From positions 1-21,297 of IMG/VR virus record IMGVR_UViG_3300037558_002105: DNA of 21,297 nucleotides. One strand, 5' to 3'. Under the pieces are notes generated by a model. That model was not told the origin of the DNA, made no database searches, and saw only the letters and a list, made by a program, of their open reading frames with translations. The position numbers were made by a program, and so were the translations under genes. How positions within the stretch are numbered: the stretch's first letter is position 1; each line of letters opens with the position of its first letter. Shown here piece by piece: positions 3,512-20,621 of the stretch. This stretch comes from a virus.

Positions 3512-5356
3512 ATGAAGCAACTTAACGTAACCGAACTCGATTTTGACAAGATTAAAAGCAATCTAAGGGATTACTTGAAAGAGCTTCCTGGCGGTGAATA
3601 TCAAGACTGGGACTTTGAAGGTTCAGGATTGAATCAATTACTTGATGTTCTGGCGTATAATACACACTATAACGCTATCCTTGCGCATAACACCATGAAC
3701 GAGTCCTTTATTGATTCGGCTCAGATACGCGGTAACGTTGTTTCACGTGCAAAGCTTCTTGGCTATGTGCCTCGGTCAGTTACCGCACCAAAGGCAACAC
3801 TTTCAATTACATTTCCGGGTGATGTAAATGAGAGTAGAGATACTTATTCTATTACGTCTGGTCTTAAGTTTACAACGACTGTTGATGATGTAACATATAC
3901 GTTTATAACGATTGAAGATTATACCACACAACTTGATGTAGTAAGTGATTCATATACCTTTCCCGCGGTTGAAATTTATCAAGGGCGAATTAAGCATAAT
4001 AAGTACGTTGTAGATGAGGCAACTGCTTATCAAAATTTTGAGATTAACGATACAACAATCGATATCTCTCAATTAAGTGTTGATGTGTATGACAACAATA
4101 AGTCCAACTCTTTCAAGTCATACACGAGATTTGATCAAATAGGAGATGTTGGGCCCGAATCAGCAGTTTATTTTATTCAAGAAAACTACGATAATCATTA
4201 TGAGGTTTCTTTTGGTGATAACGTTTTTGGTAAAAAACCAGATGCTTTGAATATTATTGATTTTAAATATTTAAGTACACTTGGTGCTGATGCAAATAAC
4301 GCAACAATTTTTGAATGGGCTGGCATTGGAGCTTCTCCATTATCGATCTCAACAATTTCAAAAGCATCGGGCGGTACTTCTCGCGAAGGAGTTGAAAGTA
4401 TTCGATTTAATGCACCACTTTCATTCATAGCACAAAACAGAACAGTGACGATCGATGATTATAAATCAATTATTGGTCAAAACATTACAGGCATTCAATC
4501 ACTTTCTGTTTGGGGTGGACAAGATAACGATCCTCCAGAATTTGGAAAAGTTTTTATTAGTGCTAAGCCCGTTGAAGATGATTTGCTAACTGAGCAAACA
4601 AAATCCGATATTCTGGATTTGATAAAAACTAAAAAGGTGATTGCAATTCTGCCAAAAATAGTTGATCCTACTTTTACGCGATTATACTTTGATGTTCTGT
4701 TTAAGTACGATTCAAATCGCACGAGCTTATCTCAAGGCCAGCTTGAAACAAAGGTGCGAGAAGCAATTGAAGAGTTTAACACTGAAGAGTTGCAGCGGTT
4801 TGATGGAGTCTTTCGTTCTTCGCAAATGCTTTCTCTTATCGATAACACAGACTTTTCAATTCTGAATTCAGTTGTTCGAGTGTTTGTCTATAAAACATTG
4901 AACATCGTTTATGCTAATCTTGCTCCAACACAGTTGAATTTTGATATGACCTTATACGGTGATGAAGATGAAGAAGAACCTTTGATGAGTTCTGACCCGT
5001 GGGAATTTGGCGGGTTTCGATATCGCTTAGGAGATGAAAGAAAAACGGATGGATCATCTGGAAGAAATGTATATGCTTATCGCGAATCAAGCACAGGTGA
5101 GAGAATTAAAGTGTATAAATCATTAGGTACTTTATTCATTAAAGAAGGAACACTGAGTTTAAACGCTCTTCCTGTATCGCAAAACGAATCAATTAACATT
5201 TACGTTTCTCCTTCTTCAAACGATATTGTTTCAAAACGGAATAACTTACTTTCAATCGATATTCAGAAAACATTTATAGGTGCTGAAGTTGATGCTATAG
5301 CAGTTGCCGGTTCTTCTGGAGCAATTGACTATAACACGTTTAATCGACAGCGCTAA
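3512..5356 (+). CDS. 6: gp6-like baseplate wedge subunit (baseplate J-like)
   Basis: The 614-residue product matches gp6, the wedge protein that dimerises to form the inner ring of the baseplate and binds gp25 and gp7. The N-terminal region (about 1-110) has the typical opening, with LNVTELDFDKIKSNLRDYL, then a Trp/Asp-rich DWDFEGSG and LLDVLAYNTHYN. The central part is the beta-rich J-like region. Residues about 385-470 (FDVLFKYD, then VREAIEEFN and FRSSQMLSLID) match the conserved C-terminal part of the family. T4 gp6 is 660 residues, so the length fits. Its place directly after gene 25 and before a gp7-like gene preserves T4 order. Confidence 0.9.
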   Translation: MKQLNVTELDFDKIKSNLRDYLKELPGGEYQDWDFEGSGLNQLLDVLAYNTHYNAILAHNTMNESFIDSAQIRGNVVSRAKLLGYVPRSVTAPKATLSITFPGDVNESRDTYSITSGLKFTTTVDDVTYTFITIEDYTTQLDVVSDSYTFPAVEIYQGRIKHNKYVVDEATAYQNFEINDTTIDISQLSVDVYDNNKSNSFKSYTRFDQIGDVGPESAVYFIQENYDNHYEVSFGDNVFGKKPDALNIIDFKYLSTLGADANNATIFEWAGIGASPLSISTISKASGGTSREGVESIRFNAPLSFIAQNRTVTIDDYKSIIGQNITGIQSLSVWGGQDNDPPEFGKVFISAKPVEDDLLTEQTKSDILDLIKTKKVIAILPKIVDPTFTRLYFDVLFKYDSNRTSLSQGQLETKVREAIEEFNTEELQRFDGVFRSSQMLSLIDNTDFSILNSVVRVFVYKTLNIVYANLAPTQLNFDMTLYGDEDEEEPLMSSDPWEFGGFRYRLGDERKTDGSSGRNVYAYRESSTGERIKVYKSLGTLFIKEGTLSLNALPVSQNESINIYVSPSSNDIVSKRNNLLSIDIQKTFIGAEVDAIAVAGSSGAIDYNTFNRQR

Positions 5357-5396: not shown

Positions 5397-8300
5397 ATGT
5401 CATATCATTATTCATCAGGCAGTAGTTCTTCTGGATCAAGTGGATCTACTAGTTCTTCTGCATCAAGCGGATCTACTAGCTCTTCTGGATCAAGTGGATC
5501 TTCGAGCAGTAGTTCATATTTACCAAGCAGTTCTTCTTCGAGTAGTAGTTCTTTATCAAGTATTGGTTCATCGCCTATTGTTTCTGGTTCAGTTTATTAT
5601 TTACAAGGTCAAAGCAACAGTGGGAATACGGACGGACTTACGGGATATTTTTATCCTCTCTATACTGATGAATCGTTAATTAGCAGAATTGGCCAATATC
5701 ATTCTCATACATTTGAAGGATTAGACCAAGTGTTTTATATGCCCTCAGGCGAGATAAATCATGGAGTTTCAAGCCCGCCGTCATCCACATACTATCGTAA
5801 CTTTATGTATCAAGAGTATGCGACGTATAACGTTACTAATGGCACAATTTCATATACAAATATTTCAACTACGCCATCACAGTCTGCGATCGCTATTGCT
5901 TCTGTTTCGAACTCTGGTACGGTTCCACAAAATCTAGAAACAACACGGACGAGTACTCTTATACCTGAGCAACTTATAGGAAAGGCACAAGGTCTTATAC
6001 AACTGCTTAAAGATTATTACAATTATTTAAACACAGAAGGTCTACCATCTTATGAAATAAATCTTATTCTTGATAATCACGACATTGATCGTGTTTCAGC
6101 AAAGTACTTAGGTAGTATCGGAAGTGAAATAGCGAAGAACGTACCAAACTCAAATGTGCTTGATCAAGTTTCTCTTTACAAAAAGATTGTCAAATTCTAC
6201 TCAACGCGAGGATCAGAAGATAGCTTATTTGCGTTCTTCCGTATTTTCTTTGACGAAGCTGTAAGTATATCATACCCAAAAGAAAGGTTATTCAAACTTT
6301 CTGATGGGGCGTGGAAACCACGCGCTGAAAATAACGAAGTTGAAATTATTGGTAATCTTTCATCTGGCGATTTGAATAACGAAGACATTAACACCGTTTT
6401 TAACATTAACGATGCACAAGGAAATAAACTAGGCTCTGGCCAACTATCTAGTTTTGCTAATGTTGACGCACTTTTCGATTATGATAATGTAGAAGAAGGT
6501 TTACAAATTGCTTTTGATAGTAAACAAAATGCTACAGACACTACTTGGATATCGAATACTGATTATCCTTGGGTAGGGAATAATCGAGGAAACGTTGCGT
6601 ACGACGGGCAAAGTTTTGAATTCGCGTTTCCTGGTGATGCGACTGATTATATTACTGCAGGCATAATCGGAAATCAATCTTCATCACTAATTACAAATGA
6701 TCATAGCATAGTCGCAAGAGTAAGAAGAGGATCAGACGGTGGGCAATACCAAGGTGTGTTTTCAGCTTCAGCGCTTTCTCTTCCTCATGCTGGCCATGAA
6801 TTATACATAGATCGAGATACAGGTAAATTGGGTCGACAATTTGTTGATATCGATAATCCAATGATCGTAGCAGATGGAAGCAATATCCGTATTCGTAACT
6901 TTAAGTCGATGAACAATTGGCGAGGAAACTTAGGAGATACTGCATCCTCTGGAGAAACATATTATAAAAACACTGCATACGCTAGCGGCACTGGACTATA
7001 TAACGGTAAACCGTTTTATGTAGATAACATTTATTACTTTGGCGCGACTTCGATTTCGCTCGCAACGCCATACACCACTTGGGACGAAAATACGGGATTC
7101 GGCACTGTAGAAAATTGGCCGGTTGCTAAAATATATTATGATGGGAATAAGTGGGTGTTTAAAGGCGCAGCAGTGTGGAATTTAATAACACAGACGTTTT
7201 CTTCTACAGGTGTAATTCTGTGTTATTCAGAAGACACCAGTGAAGATGTGTTCTCGGCAAATATTGAATGGTTTAACGAAAGTGGTTCGCCGATTGGGAA
7301 CGCATTTGTAAATACACCGATAGAGCTTGACGCTACTTTTAATTTTTCTTCGCAGTCCATTATTCCAGTCGATAACCAATACCATACTATTGCTTTGACA
7401 GGAAAGAAAGCACGCAAAGGAGGCTATATTAAAGTATCAATTGATGGTGGCGCTTGGGAAACTGTTATTTCAGGTGACACTAGCGCGCATTTAGCTGTTG
7501 ACTCTAATACAGATATTATAATTGGCAAAGGGTCTGTTTATCCATTTAAAGGATCTATGACAAATGTTCAGTATTATAATACTGCTTTGTCTGCAGCCGA
7601 TGTTTTGCAAGTACACAACTATTATATAGGTGTAGTTCTAGACTTTTATCAAATAACGTTTGAGAATAAAGATGGAAGTTATGTAAATGGTTCAACACTA
7701 GTTGAAGCCAAGGAGAAAGCGTATACTTTAAACGTATTATCAGGCCATGAAATTGATTCATTTGTTGAATTTGAAGAACCAACGTTGGATGAATCTGGAG
7801 TTGGACCTACTGTGCGTATAAAGGTTGAGTACAACCAAGCACTATCTGGCGAAAAACAGACAGTAAGATGGGGAGATTCTAGGTTTGACTTATTTTCATC
7901 AGGAAATAACGTTAGACACACATATACACCAAAAGATATTGGCGCATACGAAAATAGCCGGAGTTTTGCTTCAGATATAAACCGTTTACACGATGGTGAC
8001 TTTTGGCAGGAGTTTTCATACGTTCTTAATGTTGGTCTATCGTCTGATAAATGGCAAAACGAATATATTAGAATGGTGCACCCTGCAGGACTAAAGTTCT
8101 TTGCCTCTGTTCTTTATATTCTTTCACTGGAAAATAGTTGGCTTGGACCGAAAGTACGTTTTGATGAGGTATTAAGACAATACAAAAGAACATATGATAC
8201 TACAAAATATGCAGGCAATTACAGAACCAATAATCCGTTGTCTGATCTTGATTGGATGGAAGGTTTAACGCCACCATCTATATTAGATCCAAGCGCAAAT

Positions 8301-8717
8301 GCGCACCACATGCCCCTCTTTCAACCTGGCTGGTTAACCGGTGACTTAAGGTTCCTTGAATTGATTATCGAAGCCTTTCAATTTGATATTGGTCCTAATG
8401 ATCCTGCATATCAAAGGATGGTTCTTTCAGTCTTGCATCTTCTTCACATCACAACAAAAGATCGAGATGCATTTGCACGGGAAGACTATTTAGAAAATCT
8501 TAAATTTATTGATGTAGAGCCAATAACACCTTATTTAAATATTACGTTTGAAGAAGCGGTTTTTAATAATCCCAAGATCTTTAATAATATAAGATCTATT
8601 ATTGATATAACTATTGTAACCGAGACACGTTTAGAGACTGAAGTCGATGGATTTGATATGACAACTGAAGATAAGGATGCGACAGATCCTGAAGGTGATT
8701 CATACTTAGTAAAATAA
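5397..8717 (+). CDS. 7: gp7-like baseplate wedge protein with Ser-rich N-terminus and LamG/lectin-like insertion
   Basis: The 1106-residue product is a divergent gp7, the large wedge protein at the baseplate periphery. Residues about 188-300 (LIPEQLIGKAQGLIQLLKDY, then FYSTRGSEDSLFAFFRIFF) and about 870-905 (LSSDKW, YIRMVHPAGLKFFAS) match the two conserved blocks in the C-terminal third of T4 gp7 (1032 residues). Between them, about 405-745, lies a concanavalin A/LamG-like module (DNQYHTIALTGK, IKVSIDGGAWE, FKGSMTNVQYYNTALSAADV), itself interrupted by a Tyr/Trp-rich segment at about 500-620. Residues 6-60 are almost all Ser and Gly. The large N-terminal part of T4 gp7 is not recognisable. Position after gene 6 supports the call. 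The possible ribosome binding site GAAGG at 5377-5381 is rather distant from the ATG. Confidence 0.75.
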   Translation: MSYHYSSGSSSSGSSGSTSSSASSGSTSSSGSSGSSSSSSYLPSSSSSSSSSLSSIGSSPIVSGSVYYLQGQSNSGNTDGLTGYFYPLYTDESLISRIGQYHSHTFEGLDQVFYMPSGEINHGVSSPPSSTYYRNFMYQEYATYNVTNGTISYTNISTTPSQSAIAIASVSNSGTVPQNLETTRTSTLIPEQLIGKAQGLIQLLKDYYNYLNTEGLPSYEINLILDNHDIDRVSAKYLGSIGSEIAKNVPNSNVLDQVSLYKKIVKFYSTRGSEDSLFAFFRIFFDEAVSISYPKERLFKLSDGAWKPRAENNEVEIIGNLSSGDLNNEDINTVFNINDAQGNKLGSGQLSSFANVDALFDYDNVEEGLQIAFDSKQNATDTTWISNTDYPWVGNNRGNVAYDGQSFEFAFPGDATDYITAGIIGNQSSSLITNDHSIVARVRRGSDGGQYQGVFSASALSLPHAGHELYIDRDTGKLGRQFVDIDNPMIVADGSNIRIRNFKSMNNWRGNLGDTASSGETYYKNTAYASGTGLYNGKPFYVDNIYYFGATSISLATPYTTWDENTGFGTVENWPVAKIYYDGNKWVFKGAAVWNLITQTFSSTGVILCYSEDTSEDVFSANIEWFNESGSPIGNAFVNTPIELDATFNFSSQSIIPVDNQYHTIALTGKKARKGGYIKVSIDGGAWETVISGDTSAHLAVDSNTDIIIGKGSVYPFKGSMTNVQYYNTALSAADVLQVHNYYIGVVLDFYQITFENKDGSYVNGSTLVEAKEKAYTLNVLSGHEIDSFVEFEEPTLDESGVGPTVRIKVEYNQALSGEKQTVRWGDSRFDLFSSGNNVRHTYTPKDIGAYENSRSFASDINRLHDGDFWQEFSYVLNVGLSSDKWQNEYIRMVHPAGLKFFASVLYILSLENSWLGPKVRFDEVLRQYKRTYDTTKYAGNYRTNNPLSDLDWMEGLTPPSILDPSANAHHMPLFQPGWLTGDLRFLELIIEAFQFDIGPNDPAYQRMVLSVLHLLHITTKDRDAFAREDYLENLKFIDVEPITPYLNITFEEAVFNNPKIFNNIRSIIDITIVTETRLETEVDGFDMTTEDKDATDPEGDSYLVK
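5424..5504 (+). repeat. Three tandem 27-nt units coding Ser/Gly repeats in gp7
   Basis: Units 5424-5450, 5451-5477 and 5478-5504 encode SSSGSSGST, SSSASSGST and SSSGSSGSS (residues 10-36). They differ by few bases, so they arose by in-frame tandem duplication and may vary in number between relatives. Confidence 0.85.
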
Positions 8718-9965: not shown

Positions 9966-10709
9966 ATGGCCGCACAAAATATATCATTAGACAACGCAGA
10001 TACAAGTTCTGTTATTTATGGAGGAGACGGTGTTGATAAAGAAGTTTGTTATTTAGTAATTGACGGGCAGGAAGTTTGGAGAAAAAATCCGAAAATGCCT
10101 AATGTATATATAAGGCGGATTCAACGAGGAGGAGACGGTGATAGCCATACTACAATTTATAACCCAGGTTTCGGCTTTCCTTCTGCCTCTCAAGTAACGT
10201 CATGGTTGAATGGTAGTTCAATGACTAACAACCTTGGCATGACTGACGTGTATGGAGACTATAAAAACAGAAGCATAACATGGAGAGGTTGTACACTCAA
10301 TTCTACAGGTGGAATTGCAACAATTTTTGCATCCAATGGTACAAGGAGCGATTATTTATCTGCTCAATCGGGTTCGGATGAAGATGACGATGACGAAGGT
10401 GATAAAAACATGTCTTGGGTACTAGGAAATAAGGGGACAATTCTTGGCGCTTATAATGTCCTAACCTACACCTCTGGCTCCCGTAGAGGCCAAAAGTATC
10501 TGAGAACCGTGTACAATTGGTCAGATGCCTACGTCCCGATCAGTTCAACTTTTAGTAATCGTTCAGACGTGACACTAGTCAGTGGCGCTACAATGATGAG
10601 CATTAATACATTTGACTTAGTTAACGCTGAAATCACCGGTAAAGATTGTGGTGAAAGTTTTGCTAGGCTTTCAATTTTAGCGACCGAATCGGGAGGTGCT
10701 GCAGATTAA
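9966..10709 (+). CDS. Putative fibre-tip adhesin, paralogue A
   Basis: No named family is recognised for this 247-residue protein, but it is a clear paralogue of the product at 18128-19102. Shared features in order are an N-terminal QNISLDNADT, then EVCYLVIDGQEVWRKNP (26-42), GFPSASQVTSWLN (70-82), ITWRGCTLNSTGGI (104-117), an acidic run DEDDDDEGD (138-146) followed by LGNKGTIL (153-160), and a C-terminal DCGESFARLSIL ending in ESGGAAD. All three cysteines (28, 109, 228) are at matching places in the paralogue. It lies directly after a fibre gene, with a weak GAG/AAG-type ribosome binding site. By position it may cap or tip that fibre, as gp38 does on T-even fibres; this is inference. Confidence 0.6.
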   Translation: MAAQNISLDNADTSSVIYGGDGVDKEVCYLVIDGQEVWRKNPKMPNVYIRRIQRGGDGDSHTTIYNPGFGFPSASQVTSWLNGSSMTNNLGMTDVYGDYKNRSITWRGCTLNSTGGIATIFASNGTRSDYLSAQSGSDEDDDDEGDKNMSWVLGNKGTILGAYNVLTYTSGSRRGQKYLRTVYNWSDAYVPISSTFSNRSDVTLVSGATMMSINTFDLVNAEITGKDCGESFARLSILATESGGAAD

Positions 10710-17717: not shown

Positions 17718-18107
17718 ATGGCAGAATTTATACCAGTTTTAAAAACAGATACATTTGATCAGTGGAGAATTAAAACTAATCGAATTGGCGCCGTTATCGA
17801 TGATGTAAATAAGGCTGAAGGTCCTCAAGGCCCAGCGGGTCCAGCAGGTGCTGATGGTTTTATAGGAGCTGATGGTGCACCTGGGCCGACAGGTTCTCAA
17901 GGCCCAGCCGGACAAGATGGTGCTACAGGTCCTCGTGGTGCTACAGGTCCTCGTGGTGCTACAGGTCCTCGTGGTGCTACAGGTTCAAGTGGATCCAATG
18001 GATCCAATGGCGCGTCGGGTCCTCGTGGTCCTCAAGGTGCTGCAGGTCCTCAAGGTGCTTTTTTTAACTATTCTTCGGCGACAAGAACTCTCAGTATAAC
18101 AACTTAA
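17718..18107 (+). CDS. Collagen-like short fibre protein (second cassette)
   Basis: The 129-residue product starts with a short helical head ([19 protein letters not shown], about 14-32) of the type found at the N-terminus of marine-phage fibres. Residues about 35-113 are an unbroken series of Gly-X-Y triplets that should form a collagen-like triple helix. Proline is mostly in the X position, with repeated GPR, GPQ and GPA triplets, which is the bacterial/phage style of collagen stabilised without hydroxyproline. The end, [17 protein letters not shown], is nearly the same as the end of the fibre at 8753-9946. No Shine-Dalgarno sequence precedes it. The downstream neighbour is an adhesin-like paralogue, so the collagen rod probably serves as its stalk. 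Confidence 0.8.
17919..17990 (+). repeat. 18-nt tandem repeat in the collagen-like region
   Basis: Three identical copies of GGTGCTACAGGTCCTCGT (17919-17936, 17937-17954, 17955-17972) are followed by a fourth that diverges in its last bases. They encode GATGPR x3 and GATGSS (residues 68-91). Copy number can change in frame. Confidence 0.9.
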
Positions 18108-18127: not shown

Positions 18128-19102
18128 ATGCCTACACAAAATGTATCATTTGATAACGCGACTACACGGAACGTTACATTTAATAACAACGAAGTCTGTT
18201 ATGTAAATTTTAACGGCACAGAAATTTGGAGAAAAAATCCTCAAGCTAGTGATTTACAAACTGGAAATTTTACGCCTCGGTCTTATTATAACTATCTCAA
18301 TGGCTATGGGCGAGAAGGATATATAGGTCGCACCTTCCCTGTTGGTATAGGAGATGGATCAGTCAATACATACATACAGACATCTGATCAGCCAGGTGTT
18401 CCCTACGCGACTGGGCAGTCTCGTGGACTCATTCAAATATTTAATAGAGGTAGAGGCTTTACTAGTGGCTCTCAGGTAACGGGCTTTTTAAATGCTGGCG
18501 CTGGCACACACACTTGGAACAGAAGTGTTTTGGGCCACACATTCGTATGGAAAAATTGTACACTTAATTCTGAAGGTGGAATACAAAATATTAATATAGG
18601 TGATGCATACAGCTCAGGAATAGGAAGCAGGACTTGGGGTAGAATGGGTGGAAATAGCAACACAAGTTTTTCGAATGGTAACTATGGCGATTATGAAGAT
18701 GATGATGATGAACCAAATCATGTTGGATCTATAATACTAGGAAATAGAGGAACTATACTAGTCCCGTATCACCGCTTTACATGGGGAACAAGTTCTGCCA
18801 ATGTGGTCAGCAACTCAAATGCAATCTGGCGATATTTCGGTGGATATGGAAACCGGCTTGAACAGCAAGGCAGGACCAAAACCAATTTACCAAGTAACGC
18901 ATGGTCGGATGAAACTGCATATGTTCCCGTCGTTAGTGCGTTTGGTAGTCAACATTCTTCTCGGTCAGATGTTACTAGCTTTGGCGGTATGCTTCTAAAG
19001 GATTTTGTAAATAAATCTGGTGAGTTCACAGGTTATGCGTGTGGAGAAAGTTTTGCGAAACTCAGATTTTTAGGTTCAGAAGGCGGAGGATCCGCTGATT
19101 AA
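18128..19102 (+). CDS. Putative fibre-tip adhesin, paralogue B
   Basis: This 324-residue protein is paralogous along its length to the product at 9966-10709. Matching parts are QNVSFDNATT, EVCYVNFNGTEIWRKNP (22-38), GFTSGSQVTGFLN (110-122), FVWKNCTLNSEGGI (139-152), the acidic run DYEDDDDE (188-195), LGNRGTIL (204-211), YVPVVSAFG, and the end CGESFAKLRFLGSEGGGSAD. Cysteines 24, 144 and 305 align with the three cysteines of paralogue A. About 77 extra residues lie mainly at 43-105 and 160-187 and in 220-260, rich in Gly, Asn, Ser and Tyr. It follows the collagen-like gene by 20 nt. A receptor-binding or fibre-capping role is inferred from pairing and from variable-loop design. Confidence 0.6.
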   Translation: MPTQNVSFDNATTRNVTFNNNEVCYVNFNGTEIWRKNPQASDLQTGNFTPRSYYNYLNGYGREGYIGRTFPVGIGDGSVNTYIQTSDQPGVPYATGQSRGLIQIFNRGRGFTSGSQVTGFLNAGAGTHTWNRSVLGHTFVWKNCTLNSEGGIQNINIGDAYSSGIGSRTWGRMGGNSNTSFSNGNYGDYEDDDDEPNHVGSIILGNRGTILVPYHRFTWGTSSANVVSNSNAIWRYFGGYGNRLEQQGRTKTNLPSNAWSDETAYVPVVSAFGSQHSSRSDVTSFGGMLLKDFVNKSGEFTGYACGESFAKLRFLGSEGGGSAD

Positions 19103-19103
19103 A

Positions 19104-19646
19104 ATGGATAATGAATTAATATCTCTTGCAGAAGACGTAAGAAAAAAGCTACGAGAAGCAAAAATTAAAGAAGATTCATTTTCACCTAATGTTAATTTAG
19201 AAGATAAGCTATCTATACAAAAATTAAATACAATAAAGAATGCTGGTGATTTGCCAAGAGCGCGATTTTTAGAAGGCAATGATAACCGAATATCATTTTT
19301 TAGATTTAAAGAAATCATAACACTAAAGGAATATATTAATAGTAAACTAAATGTAGAAGCTGTGAAAAGCGGCATATTTTGGTACCCTTCAAATGGTTAT
19401 TGTGGGTGGCACACAAATAGTGATACTAAATTACATAAACCAAATAGACTTTATTTAACATGGGCTCAAGAAGATAAGAAAAGTTTTTTTCGATATCAAG
19501 ATAATAGCACAGGAGAAATTAAAACAAATTACGATACTAAAGGCTGGCAAATAAGAAAATTTAAACTAAGTTCAGACGAAGAATCTTTATATTGGCACTG
19601 TGTAGGTTCTCAAACGAATAGAGTTTCAATAGGGTTTGCTTATTAA
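19104..19646 (+). CDS. 2OG-Fe(II) oxygenase-like protein, copy 1
   Basis: The 180-residue product resembles small 2-oxoglutarate/Fe(II)-dependent oxygenases found in marine T4-like phages. The core shows FWYPSNGYCGWHTN (92-105), RLYLTW, KSFFRYQD (126-133) and WHCVGSQTNRVSIGF (164-178). H103 and H165 would be iron-binding histidines and R173 the 2-oxoglutarate-binding arginine. The usual HxD acid is replaced by Asn (H103-T-N105); D107 is the nearest acid, so catalysis is uncertain. Residues 1-70 are helical. It is a tandem paralogue of the next gene. A GGCGGAGGA sequence at 19082-19090, inside the end of the previous gene, may serve as its ribosome binding site. The substrate is unknown. Confidence 0.65.
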   Translation: MDNELISLAEDVRKKLREAKIKEDSFSPNVNLEDKLSIQKLNTIKNAGDLPRARFLEGNDNRISFFRFKEIITLKEYINSKLNVEAVKSGIFWYPSNGYCGWHTNSDTKLHKPNRLYLTWAQEDKKSFFRYQDNSTGEIKTNYDTKGWQIRKFKLSSDEESLYWHCVGSQTNRVSIGFAY

Positions 19647-19665
19647 ACGCTGTAGCAATTTTATA

Positions 19666-20262
19666 ATGATTGATACATCCAAACTTAACCTTACCATAAT
19701 CAATCCATTAGTAGATAAACTTATTGAAGGATTGTTTAGTGGAGAGAACGTGGTAGAACGCGTGTGTTATAATCCATTTGATAATACTTTAGAGGAAAAA
19801 CTGAGTTTAGCTAATTTAAATAAAATCATGTTAGAGCATAGCGATGTAAAAGCAGCTAGACAAATCTCAAACAACGATAACCGGTTTGTTTTAAAAACTA
19901 CAGATACAATTAATGAACTTACACGAGAAATTGTGTTAGCATGTGGTGGTATATGGAAATCAAGTGGCATGTTTTGGTATCCACCAAAGTCTTACTGCGG
20001 ATGGCACACAAACAACAACAGAGAAGGTACACGAGTTTATCTTGCTTGGGCTGAAGAAAGCGATAAAAGCTTCTTTCGTTATTATGATCAAGATAAGGGC
20101 CAAACTGTGACCGCTTGGGATAAACAAGGACTTAACATACACCAATTTACAGTTAATAAAGAAAAGCCTTGCTGGCATTGCGTAGGAAGTTACACTCATC
20201 GAATAAGCTTTGGTTTTATGTCGCAGGACGAACATGGAGACTACGTTAGGAGTATCGTATGA
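19666..20262 (+). CDS. 2OG-Fe(II) oxygenase-like protein, copy 2
   Basis: Start chosen at ATG 19666 (198 residues); an in-frame TTG at 19636 would overlap the previous gene by 11 nt and cannot be excluded. The core matches copy 1: MFWYPPKSYCGWHTN (102-116), RVYLAW, KSFFRYYD (134-141) and WHCVGSYTHRISFGF (170-184). H114, H171 and R179 are the candidate iron and co-substrate residues, and again Asn (N116) replaces the HxD acid, followed by more Asn rather than Asp. The N-terminal parts also match (LEEKLSLANLN here, LEDKLSIQKLN in copy 1). This points to an old tandem duplication with both copies retained. It overlaps the next gene by ATGA. Confidence 0.65.
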   Translation: MIDTSKLNLTIINPLVDKLIEGLFSGENVVERVCYNPFDNTLEEKLSLANLNKIMLEHSDVKAARQISNNDNRFVLKTTDTINELTREIVLACGGIWKSSGMFWYPPKSYCGWHTNNNREGTRVYLAWAEESDKSFFRYYDQDKGQTVTAWDKQGLNIHQFTVNKEKPCWHCVGSYTHRISFGFMSQDEHGDYVRSIV

Positions 20263-20621
20263 ATAATTTCGCAGATGGCACTCATAATTGTACTCGTGAC
20301 TGGGCTATAGGTGGTATAGAAAAAAACATTTGTGTGAAAAATCTTTTTTGCGAGGGCAAAATGGAGATTGTAAAGTTTTCAGACATAGCAATAAAGTATT
20401 TTGATGCAATTAAAGAAAGAACAAGATATGAGGAGGCAGACGTAAGATTCCCTGGTATTTTAGCAGAAGGCGTTGAAAACCCATATAACAAGCGCTATAG
20501 GCTATGTGATGGACGCCATCGTATAAAAAAACTAATGAATCAGGGGCACAGCGAAGGCGTATTTTATATAATTTCAAATAAATGCTTTATGGAAGTTTTT
20601 AACAAAACTGATTCAAAATAA
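20259..20621 (+). CDS. Small DGRHR-motif protein (ParB/sulfiredoxin-like fold candidate)
   Basis: The 120-residue product overlaps the previous stop by 4 nt (ATGA), so it is translationally coupled to the second oxygenase-like gene. Residues about 74-96 (NPYNKRYRLCDGRHRIKKLMNQG) match the signature of the ParB/sulfiredoxin-like superfamily, in which the DG-x-HR loop binds a nucleotide phosphate. The preceding stretch (VKFSDIAIKYF, about 38-48) could be the usual first strand and helix. The length suits a single such domain without the DNA-binding helices of true ParB. Members serve as CTPases, sulfiredoxins or phosphotransferases, and which applies cannot be told. Four cysteines (11, 25, 31, 83) and a fifth at 109 are notable in a small protein. 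Confidence 0.5.
   Translation: MNNFADGTHNCTRDWAIGGIEKNICVKNLFCEGKMEIVKFSDIAIKYFDAIKERTRYEEADVRFPGILAEGVENPYNKRYRLCDGRHRIKKLMNQGHSEGVFYIISNKCFMEVFNKTDSK

Follow-up and report, generated by a model that had tools for sequence, protein, structure and literature searches.

Two adjacent genes of a bacterial virus (IMGVR_UViG_3300037558_002105) encode, judging from their sequences, members of one large, mainly phage-borne and unnamed family with the predicted fold of a 2-oxoglutarate (2OG) oxygenase and the signature H-x-N ... H ... R. The Asn stands where these enzymes normally carry the acid of H-x-D, and its conservation indicates a family rule maintained by purifying selection. What is new is a partner gene with a DG[RK]HR motif that is coupled to, or fused with, the H-x-N gene. 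The window, by which we mean the whole stretch of DNA analysed, is 21,297 bases long and includes T4-like tail genes; the features discussed below are listed in Table 1.

Table 1. Positions of the features discussed in the text, numbered from the first base of the window.
Feature	Position	Strand	Evidence or remark
Baseplate wedge subunit	3512-5356		phrog_219, E 3e-148; an example of the T4-like tail genes
Collagen-like (Gly-X-Y) tail fibre-type protein	17718..18107	+	Pfam Collagen PF01391, E 9.5e-15; PHROG tail fibre families, best E 1.4e-22
Protein directly upstream of copy A, probably a virion protein by context	18128..19102	+	Candidate substrate (client) of copy A
Copy A, H-x-N-type protein with predicted 2OG-oxygenase fold, 180 aa	19104..19646	+	Translation, model, Foldseek and VIA matches
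Copy A H103-T104-N105, site equivalent to HxD	19410..19418	+	Translation, motif scan, family conservation
Copy A distal His165, start of strand VII	19596..19598	+	Conserved in 84/84; model
Copy A Arg173, predicted 2OG-binding Arg, start of strand VIII	19620..19622	+	Conserved in 84/84; model
Copy B, H-x-N-type protein with predicted 2OG-oxygenase fold, 198 aa from ATG	19666..20262	+	Sequence; fold model is that of copy A; alternative TTG start at 19636
Copy B H114-T115-N116	20005..20013	+	Translation, motif scan
Copy B distal His171	20176..20178	+	Translation, alignment to copy A
Copy B Arg179	20200..20202	+	Translation, alignment to copy A
Partner gene, probable ParB/sulfiredoxin-type fold, 120 aa	20259..20621	+	ATG overlaps the stop of copy B (ATGA); model; phrog_35149
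Partner motif D84-G-R-H-R88	20508..20522	+	Alignment of 26 sequences

The first-pass annotation had described tandem paralogues at 19104-20262 with W-H-T-N instead of H-x-D and with the distal His and the following Arg kept. The motif was confirmed in both copies (W102-H103-T104-N105 with H165 and R173 in copy A; W113-H114-T115-N116 with H171 and R179 in copy B, numbered from its ATG), and a nucleotide pattern covering G-W-H-T-N and the codons after it matches at these two places and nowhere else in the window (mean 0.00 over 100 shuffles). Both genes do lie in that interval, but the unit also includes 20259-20621, which had been omitted. Copy A starts one base past the stop of the preceding gene. 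The copies are 42% identical over 148 columns (E 3e-35) and their tandem layout is real, but they are not sister duplicates: in a 59-row maximum-likelihood tree copy A groups with locus L009 (support 100/98) and copy B with locus L008 (100/93), so a recent tandem duplication was rejected. Two family copies were seen in 2/83 scanned loci, many of them short; these were the window and L025 only.

The AlphaFold2 model of copy A (m861de4e01301; pLDDT 93.6, pTM 0.88, 71-row alignment) has eight core strands in DSBH order, at residues 87-94, 98-103, 114-121, 127-132, 139-143, 147-154, 165-169 and 173-179. H103 is the final residue of strand II, and strands VII and VIII begin with His165 and Arg173. 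Because HTN thus closes strand II, with the distal His and the Arg at the heads of VII and VIII, Asn105 is predicted to occupy the acid position. Set against the superfamily, the protein has the DSBH core, the distal His and the Arg (in presumed roles), with H-x-N in place of H-x-D/E. VIA-align 2 matched the model to a Trichoplax prolyl hydroxylase (Z 11.2), PHD2 (11.1), P. putida P4H (11.0), AlkB (10.7) and a viral collagen prolyl hydroxylase (10.4). The best 50 matches span Z 11.2 to 9.9, with 134-150 residues at 2.7-4.0 Å, and 49 are titled as 2OG oxygenases, the remaining one (3rzm) being a direct DNA repair protein. Since AlkB-type structures fall within 1 Z of the prolyl hydroxylases, the fold does not fix the substrate class. 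Against the PDB, Foldseek gave a best E of 9.8e-5 with modest TM-scores (0.24-0.53, normalised to the model, among the 50 matches listed), and the matches at E 0.001 include cupins, ectoine synthase and a carbohydrate-binding module. The best match among predicted viral structures was an uncharacterised phage protein (E 9.2e-10, TM 0.69).

The VIA aligned ranges end at residue 180 of copy A against 390 of PHD2, 211 of AlkB, 276 of ABH3 and 284 of ALKBH5. Provided that the last strand aligns without gaps, R173 corresponds to PHD2 383, AlkB 204, ABH3 269 and ALKBH5 277, which we take to be the 2OG-binding arginines of those enzymes. A canonical phage enzyme found in locus L103 (phrog_61, E 6e-20) aligns its HTD with HTN and its distal His with H165 (hhalign probability 59%); the search motif had fixed the HTD part of this alignment in advance, which does not apply to the distal His. 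The earlier proposal of a 2OG-oxygenase fold is thus borne out by the DSBH of the model and its Foldseek and VIA matches to prolyl hydroxylases, and that of Asn in place of the acid by the model topology and the alignment to this H-T-D protein.

A different Asp or Glu could in principle be the true iron ligand, as the first-pass annotation had allowed. Only two columns are acidic in at least 80% of 90 aligned members: residue 144 (Asp or Glu in 90/90), in the turn between strands V and VI of the copy A model, and residue 123 (mostly Glu, as in copy A; acidic in 82/90), in the III-IV turn. In DSBH enzymes the II-III, IV-V and VI-VII turns form the active-site end, and the V-VI and III-IV turns lie away from the metal. 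Residues 144 and 123 are therefore disfavoured as ligands, their distal placement being read from this general layout.

Relatives were sought in viral contigs with a profile of eight sequences and a pattern ending in Asn. At least 599 stretches matched the pattern, at least 545 were confirmed as relatives and 80 loci were kept; genome contigs yielded nine family loci. A tblastn search of 50,697 phage records at E 0.01 found relatives in two, LR756511 and phage C48C1. The complete C48C1 genome (OQ984149) holds three divergent H-x-N paralogues at 18267-18920, 40130-40804 and 152322-153029 (H-N-N, H-T-N and H-N-N), two of which adjoin tail genes. Relatives are rare in bacteria: with seed genomes counted, they occur in 4/140 genomes of the family of genome G001, 2/369 of its class, 1/392 in the phylum of G006 and 1/289 in the class of G003. 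Loci L088 and L090 look chromosomal, by eye, each having similar genes on the opposite strand no more than about 1 kb off. The plasmids searched gave no match, and copy B used by itself as query brought up no relative.

The family is without a name in the three family libraries searched (Pfam, PHROGs and NCBIfam), where copies A and B had no credible match, their best hits (E 0.016 and 0.028, respectively) being to unrelated families. Neither copy matched the phrog_61 model up to E 1, and among seven relatives scanned against it only a divergent C48C1 member matched, weakly (E 0.0048). Compared with the sequences of solved structures, the family profile found nothing meaningful and the canonical L103 protein nothing. 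Literature searches returned no account of the family in the titles or abstract openings listed, where absence is not absence from print. They likewise gave no H-x-N motif together with 2-oxoglutarate, no 2-His-1-Asn site among the matches listed and no paper joining phage tail fibre, collagen-like protein and prolyl hydroxylase; the excerpts of papers on acid-less sites that were retrieved carry no statement of Asn replacing the acid.

In the first set of members N105 and H103 were conserved in 85/85 and H165 and R173 in 84/84. The 85/85 for Asn is not independent evidence, because the main search pattern ended in Asn. Members found without an Asn-containing pattern bear on this more directly: Asn was the second residue after His in 19/19, a few of them nearly identical. 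These comprise eleven from a second route (ten via a second pattern, plus the second copy of L025, found in flanking sequence), three from C48C1, one from LR756511, and L247, L248, L249 and L253. Since L018, L019 and L021 are nearly identical, the eleven amount to ten distinct sequences; L253 is a distant match (E 1.6e-4), and the profiles themselves contain Asn, a slight bias towards it. Three of the 19 read H-N-N, one H-D-N and one H-S-N (LR756511), and the rest H-T-N. In a second set of 90 aligned members, Asn and His103 were each present in 90/90, with both Asn codons in use (AAC 37, AAT 53), and Tyr94 and Tyr117 were conserved in 88/90 and 89/90. Aligning homologues to see if Asn is invariant was the check suggested at first pass, and by these counts it is.

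Scans for the motif in its two forms gave opposite results when membership was judged by a model with the site masked. None of 32 contigs with MGWHTD encodes a family member (0/32), whereas MGWHTN occurs in at least 120 stretches, 80 of which gave 78 new loci to examine, and 62 of these 78 are members (15/78 lie, by contig names, on contigs already in the first set). Three MGWHTD contigs code for proteins whose 2OG motif looks canonical; those of L103 and L100 match phrog_61, and that of L124 resembles L100. The canonical-looking HTD proteins at L100:2907-3419 and L124:672-1178 have phrog_274 'DNA endonuclease V' as best PHROG, a label that is probably wrong.

The NG86 dN/dS has a median of 0.18 (115 usable of 154 pairs, which are not mutually independent), making decay very unlikely; the joint sparing of His, His and Arg is also not expected under decay. 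Conservation of His, Asn, His and Arg together with this ratio points to a maintained function, as the first-pass annotation had supposed. Its own argument, that the same change in both tandem copies implies a specialised function, is weak, because the whole family shares the Asn and each copy has a closer relative elsewhere.

The partner is a protein of 109-144 aa, with the DG[RK]HR motif in most members, that follows the family gene in a number of unrelated phages. It is coupled to the H-x-N gene in about a third of the loci seen, being present in 31/88, some nearly identical; L009, which holds the closest relative of copy A, is without it. Eighteen of the 31 overlap the H-x-N gene by exactly 4 bases, three overlap it by 23 bases and two are fused to it (L007 and L089), while six lie on the opposite strand, one is 6.4 kb away and one was not measured. 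In L025 the partner sits between the two H-x-N copies. The partner directly neighbours the H-x-N gene, or is fused to it, in 16/57 non-redundant loci; genes drawn at random from the same locus, which cannot be fused, averaged 3.0 (5,000 draws, maximum 9, P = 2e-4).

H9, R56, D84, G85, R88 and K91 are invariant in an alignment of 26 partner sequences, and H87 is present in at least 90%. The partner matches phrog_35149, of unknown function (E 4e-13), and a search of Pfam with the 26 members gave nothing credible, none better than E 0.03. Its model (m102d95ec8e58; pLDDT 91.0, pTM 0.84) had sulfiredoxin (2rii, E 4e-3) and ParB (6sdk, E 5e-3) as best Foldseek matches, with none at E 0.001 or better, and its VIA matches were led by Srx, PadC, ParB and SerK at Z of at most 7.0, with SbnI also among the best matches of the model. 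The partner thus probably has a ParB/sulfiredoxin-type fold, which is likely and not certain because Z stays at or below 7.0 and the best Foldseek E is 4e-3.

Several loci link the family to tails. A natural fusion (L047:515-1432) joins an H-x-N domain to the tail assembly chaperone domain Phage_tail_APC (PF16778, E 5e-13, above cut-off). In C48C1 one copy adjoins a gene annotated L-shaped tail fibre protein assembly and another adjoins a tail tube gene; a tail tube gene also precedes the family gene in L014, and a tail protein gene does so in L008. With up to two neighbours per side taken from each locus, and long ones trimmed to their last 420 residues, phrog_863 'tail fiber assembly' made up 6/103 upstream and 3/104 downstream neighbours, and phrog_239 (DNA primase/helicase-type) 4/103 upstream. 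The family gene was near one of five recurrent tail clusters in 11/57 loci, with a mean of 11.5 for random genes of the same locus (P = 0.71), showing no enrichment within these tail-rich loci; comparison with phage genomes at large is outside the reach of this control. For the same reason little weight attaches to the 27/58 non-redundant lineages with a recurrent tail-cluster gene or a 164-aa upstream gene within 3 kb, since a within-locus control cannot set tail-richness against the phage background. The 164-aa protein, found in 16 loci, is not called a tail-fibre chaperone because it matches only phrog_20196 (unknown function) or, in L051, nothing.

Other members sit elsewhere: L023 beside a terminase small subunit-like gene, L057 in a glycan-like cluster (by eye), and L088 and L090 near bacterial genes. 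In L095 (7083-8282; Thiobacillus MAG) a GNAT acetyltransferase domain precedes the H-x-N domain (PF00583, E 3e-11). In L011-L013, L015-L019, L021, L022 and L027 the H-x-N gene has one or two small neighbours from an unnamed family, resembling GNAT by eye; two of them from L016 had no credible match in Pfam. Nol-like carbamoyltransferases occur near the H-x-N gene in L031, L032, L034, L038, L042, L061, L084 and L085, identified in L061 by phrog_1601 (E 5e-132) and in the rest by clustering.

In the window, the protein upstream of copy A has a 62% identical homologue (L009:6977-7996) upstream of copy A's closest relative. It is also a paralogue, at about 30% identity and with similar N- and C-terminal ends, of the product of 9966-10709 in the tail gene region; neither protein falls in a credible Pfam or PHROG family. 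The collagen-like protein is encoded near the H-x-N genes, with no link to the enzyme seen. A 1106-aa protein at 5397-8717 starts with a Ser/Gly-rich low-complexity stretch.

The predicted fold and the conservation are solid, and the chemistry and client are where our reading becomes conjectural. We tentatively favour an iron- and 2OG-binding, probably active, non-canonical oxygenase that would work on phage tail or adhesin proteins together with the partner. The two His would hold Fe(II), with Asn as a weak third ligand or none, and Arg173 would hold 2OG; a tail or adhesin protein might then be oxidised at one of its side chains, and the partner, using a nucleotide, may act on this client or gate it. 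Tail proteins are rated as the likeliest client and no more, since the gene is no closer to tail genes than random genes of its loci and several members lie elsewhere; the partner's presence in only 31/88 loci, L009 not among them, also tells against the reading. A specific form of this, in which a two-His-one-Asn oxygenase oxidises a residue of a tail or receptor-binding protein and the partner follows with a step that uses a nucleotide, a two-enzyme unit thereby altering the adhesin chemically before assembly, we consider quite unlikely as a whole. Two points count against an active enzyme: Asp-to-Asn changes in engineered 2OG oxygenases are usually inactivating, and natural acid-less enzymes have, to our knowledge, Gly or Ala and not Asn. 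In its favour, the acid is dispensable in some 2OG oxygenases, as AspH and Asp-to-Gly FIH show (PMC10947486, in part).

It is possible, if doubtful, that the protein is instead catalytically dead, a 2OG fold reused as a tail-fibre assembly factor or a peptide- or glycan-binding chaperone, in which redox chemistry is lost through the Asn and the pocket of His and Arg serves to bind a ligand. The Phage_tail_APC fusion, the C48C1 copy beside a tail fibre assembly gene and the phrog_863 neighbours would suit such a role, as would the fact that Asp was not found replacing the Asn. However, every member whose sequence extends that far has both His and the Arg, and Tyr94 and Tyr117 are near-invariant, which is beyond the needs of a scaffold, and some members lie outside tail loci. 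Another reading, which we think unlikely, is that the protein is an active 2OG oxygenase working on a nucleic acid, nucleotide, sugar or small molecule and not on a tail protein. AlkB/ALKBH structures reach Z 10-10.7, no more than 1.2 below the best prolyl hydroxylase; ParB-fold proteins frequently have DNA-related roles, according to the portion of PMC12704722 consulted; and the GNAT fusion of L095, Nol-like carbamoyltransferases within 4 kb in seven loci, the L057 cluster and the primase/helicase-type neighbours (4/103) are consistent with it. Against it, no DNA-base modification gene set was recognised by eye in 12 loci, and the window genes sit among tail genes.

The first-pass annotation had also drawn a parallel with Fe/2OG halogenases, in which loss of the acid opens the iron site to chloride or another anion. 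The acid is absent here too, but known halogenases have Ala or Gly (PMC10947486, in part), Asn is larger and invariant, and since neither Ala nor Gly was seen at the site among the 90 members (0/90), the parallel is unsupported and such chemistry remote. For relaxed or decaying copies, or a chance resemblance, one could cite the missing acid and the lack of a credible family-library match; set against at least 545 confirmed stretches in viral contigs, the low dN/dS and a high-confidence fold, this explanation is negligible.

Recognition of 2OG oxygenases, and the dismissal of 'dead' ones, commonly relies on the H-x-D/E motif. A family in which both His and the Arg persist beside a fixed Asn is a natural experiment on whether an iron site can make use of Asn, and its coupled partner points to a possible phage modification unit.

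Among known systems, copy A most resembles prolyl 4-hydroxylases of the PHD2 type (PDB 4j25, 3oui, 6ey1 and 5c5t), sharing with them the eight-strand DSBH, an HxD-equivalent ending strand II, the distal His and the 2OG-type Arg (Z 10.4-11.2); it differs in its invariant Asn for Asp, its 9-13% identity in four alignments and its want of a Pfam 2OG match. 2OG oxygenases are described as common in cyanophages in the excerpt of PMC3037559 consulted, and the corresponding excerpt of a structure-based survey reports phage EGLN3-like proteins that keep both His, with 'glutamine' (as printed) third in the 2-His-1-carboxylate triad (PMC12774648). Phage 2OG-Fe(II) oxygenases of phrog_61 and its relatives come close in motif, the YNPGVEMGWHTD of L103 being nearly the same as the family's YPxxGYMGWHTN, with the distal His aligned; they carry the canonical Asp, and the site-masked family model recognised none of the 32 MGWHTD contigs. 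AspH, a natural HxG enzyme (PMC10947486, in part), and the Fe/2OG halogenases resemble the H-x-N family in keeping two His and having no protein carboxylate at the iron site, whereas their acid site holds Gly or Ala and that of the H-x-N family Asn in 90/90. The partner may share the nucleotide-binding fold of ParB, sulfiredoxin, SerK and SbnI, to judge by its best model matches (Z up to 7.0) and its G-x-H-R motif, and differs from them in being mostly a separate protein of 109-144 aa coupled to an H-x-N gene.
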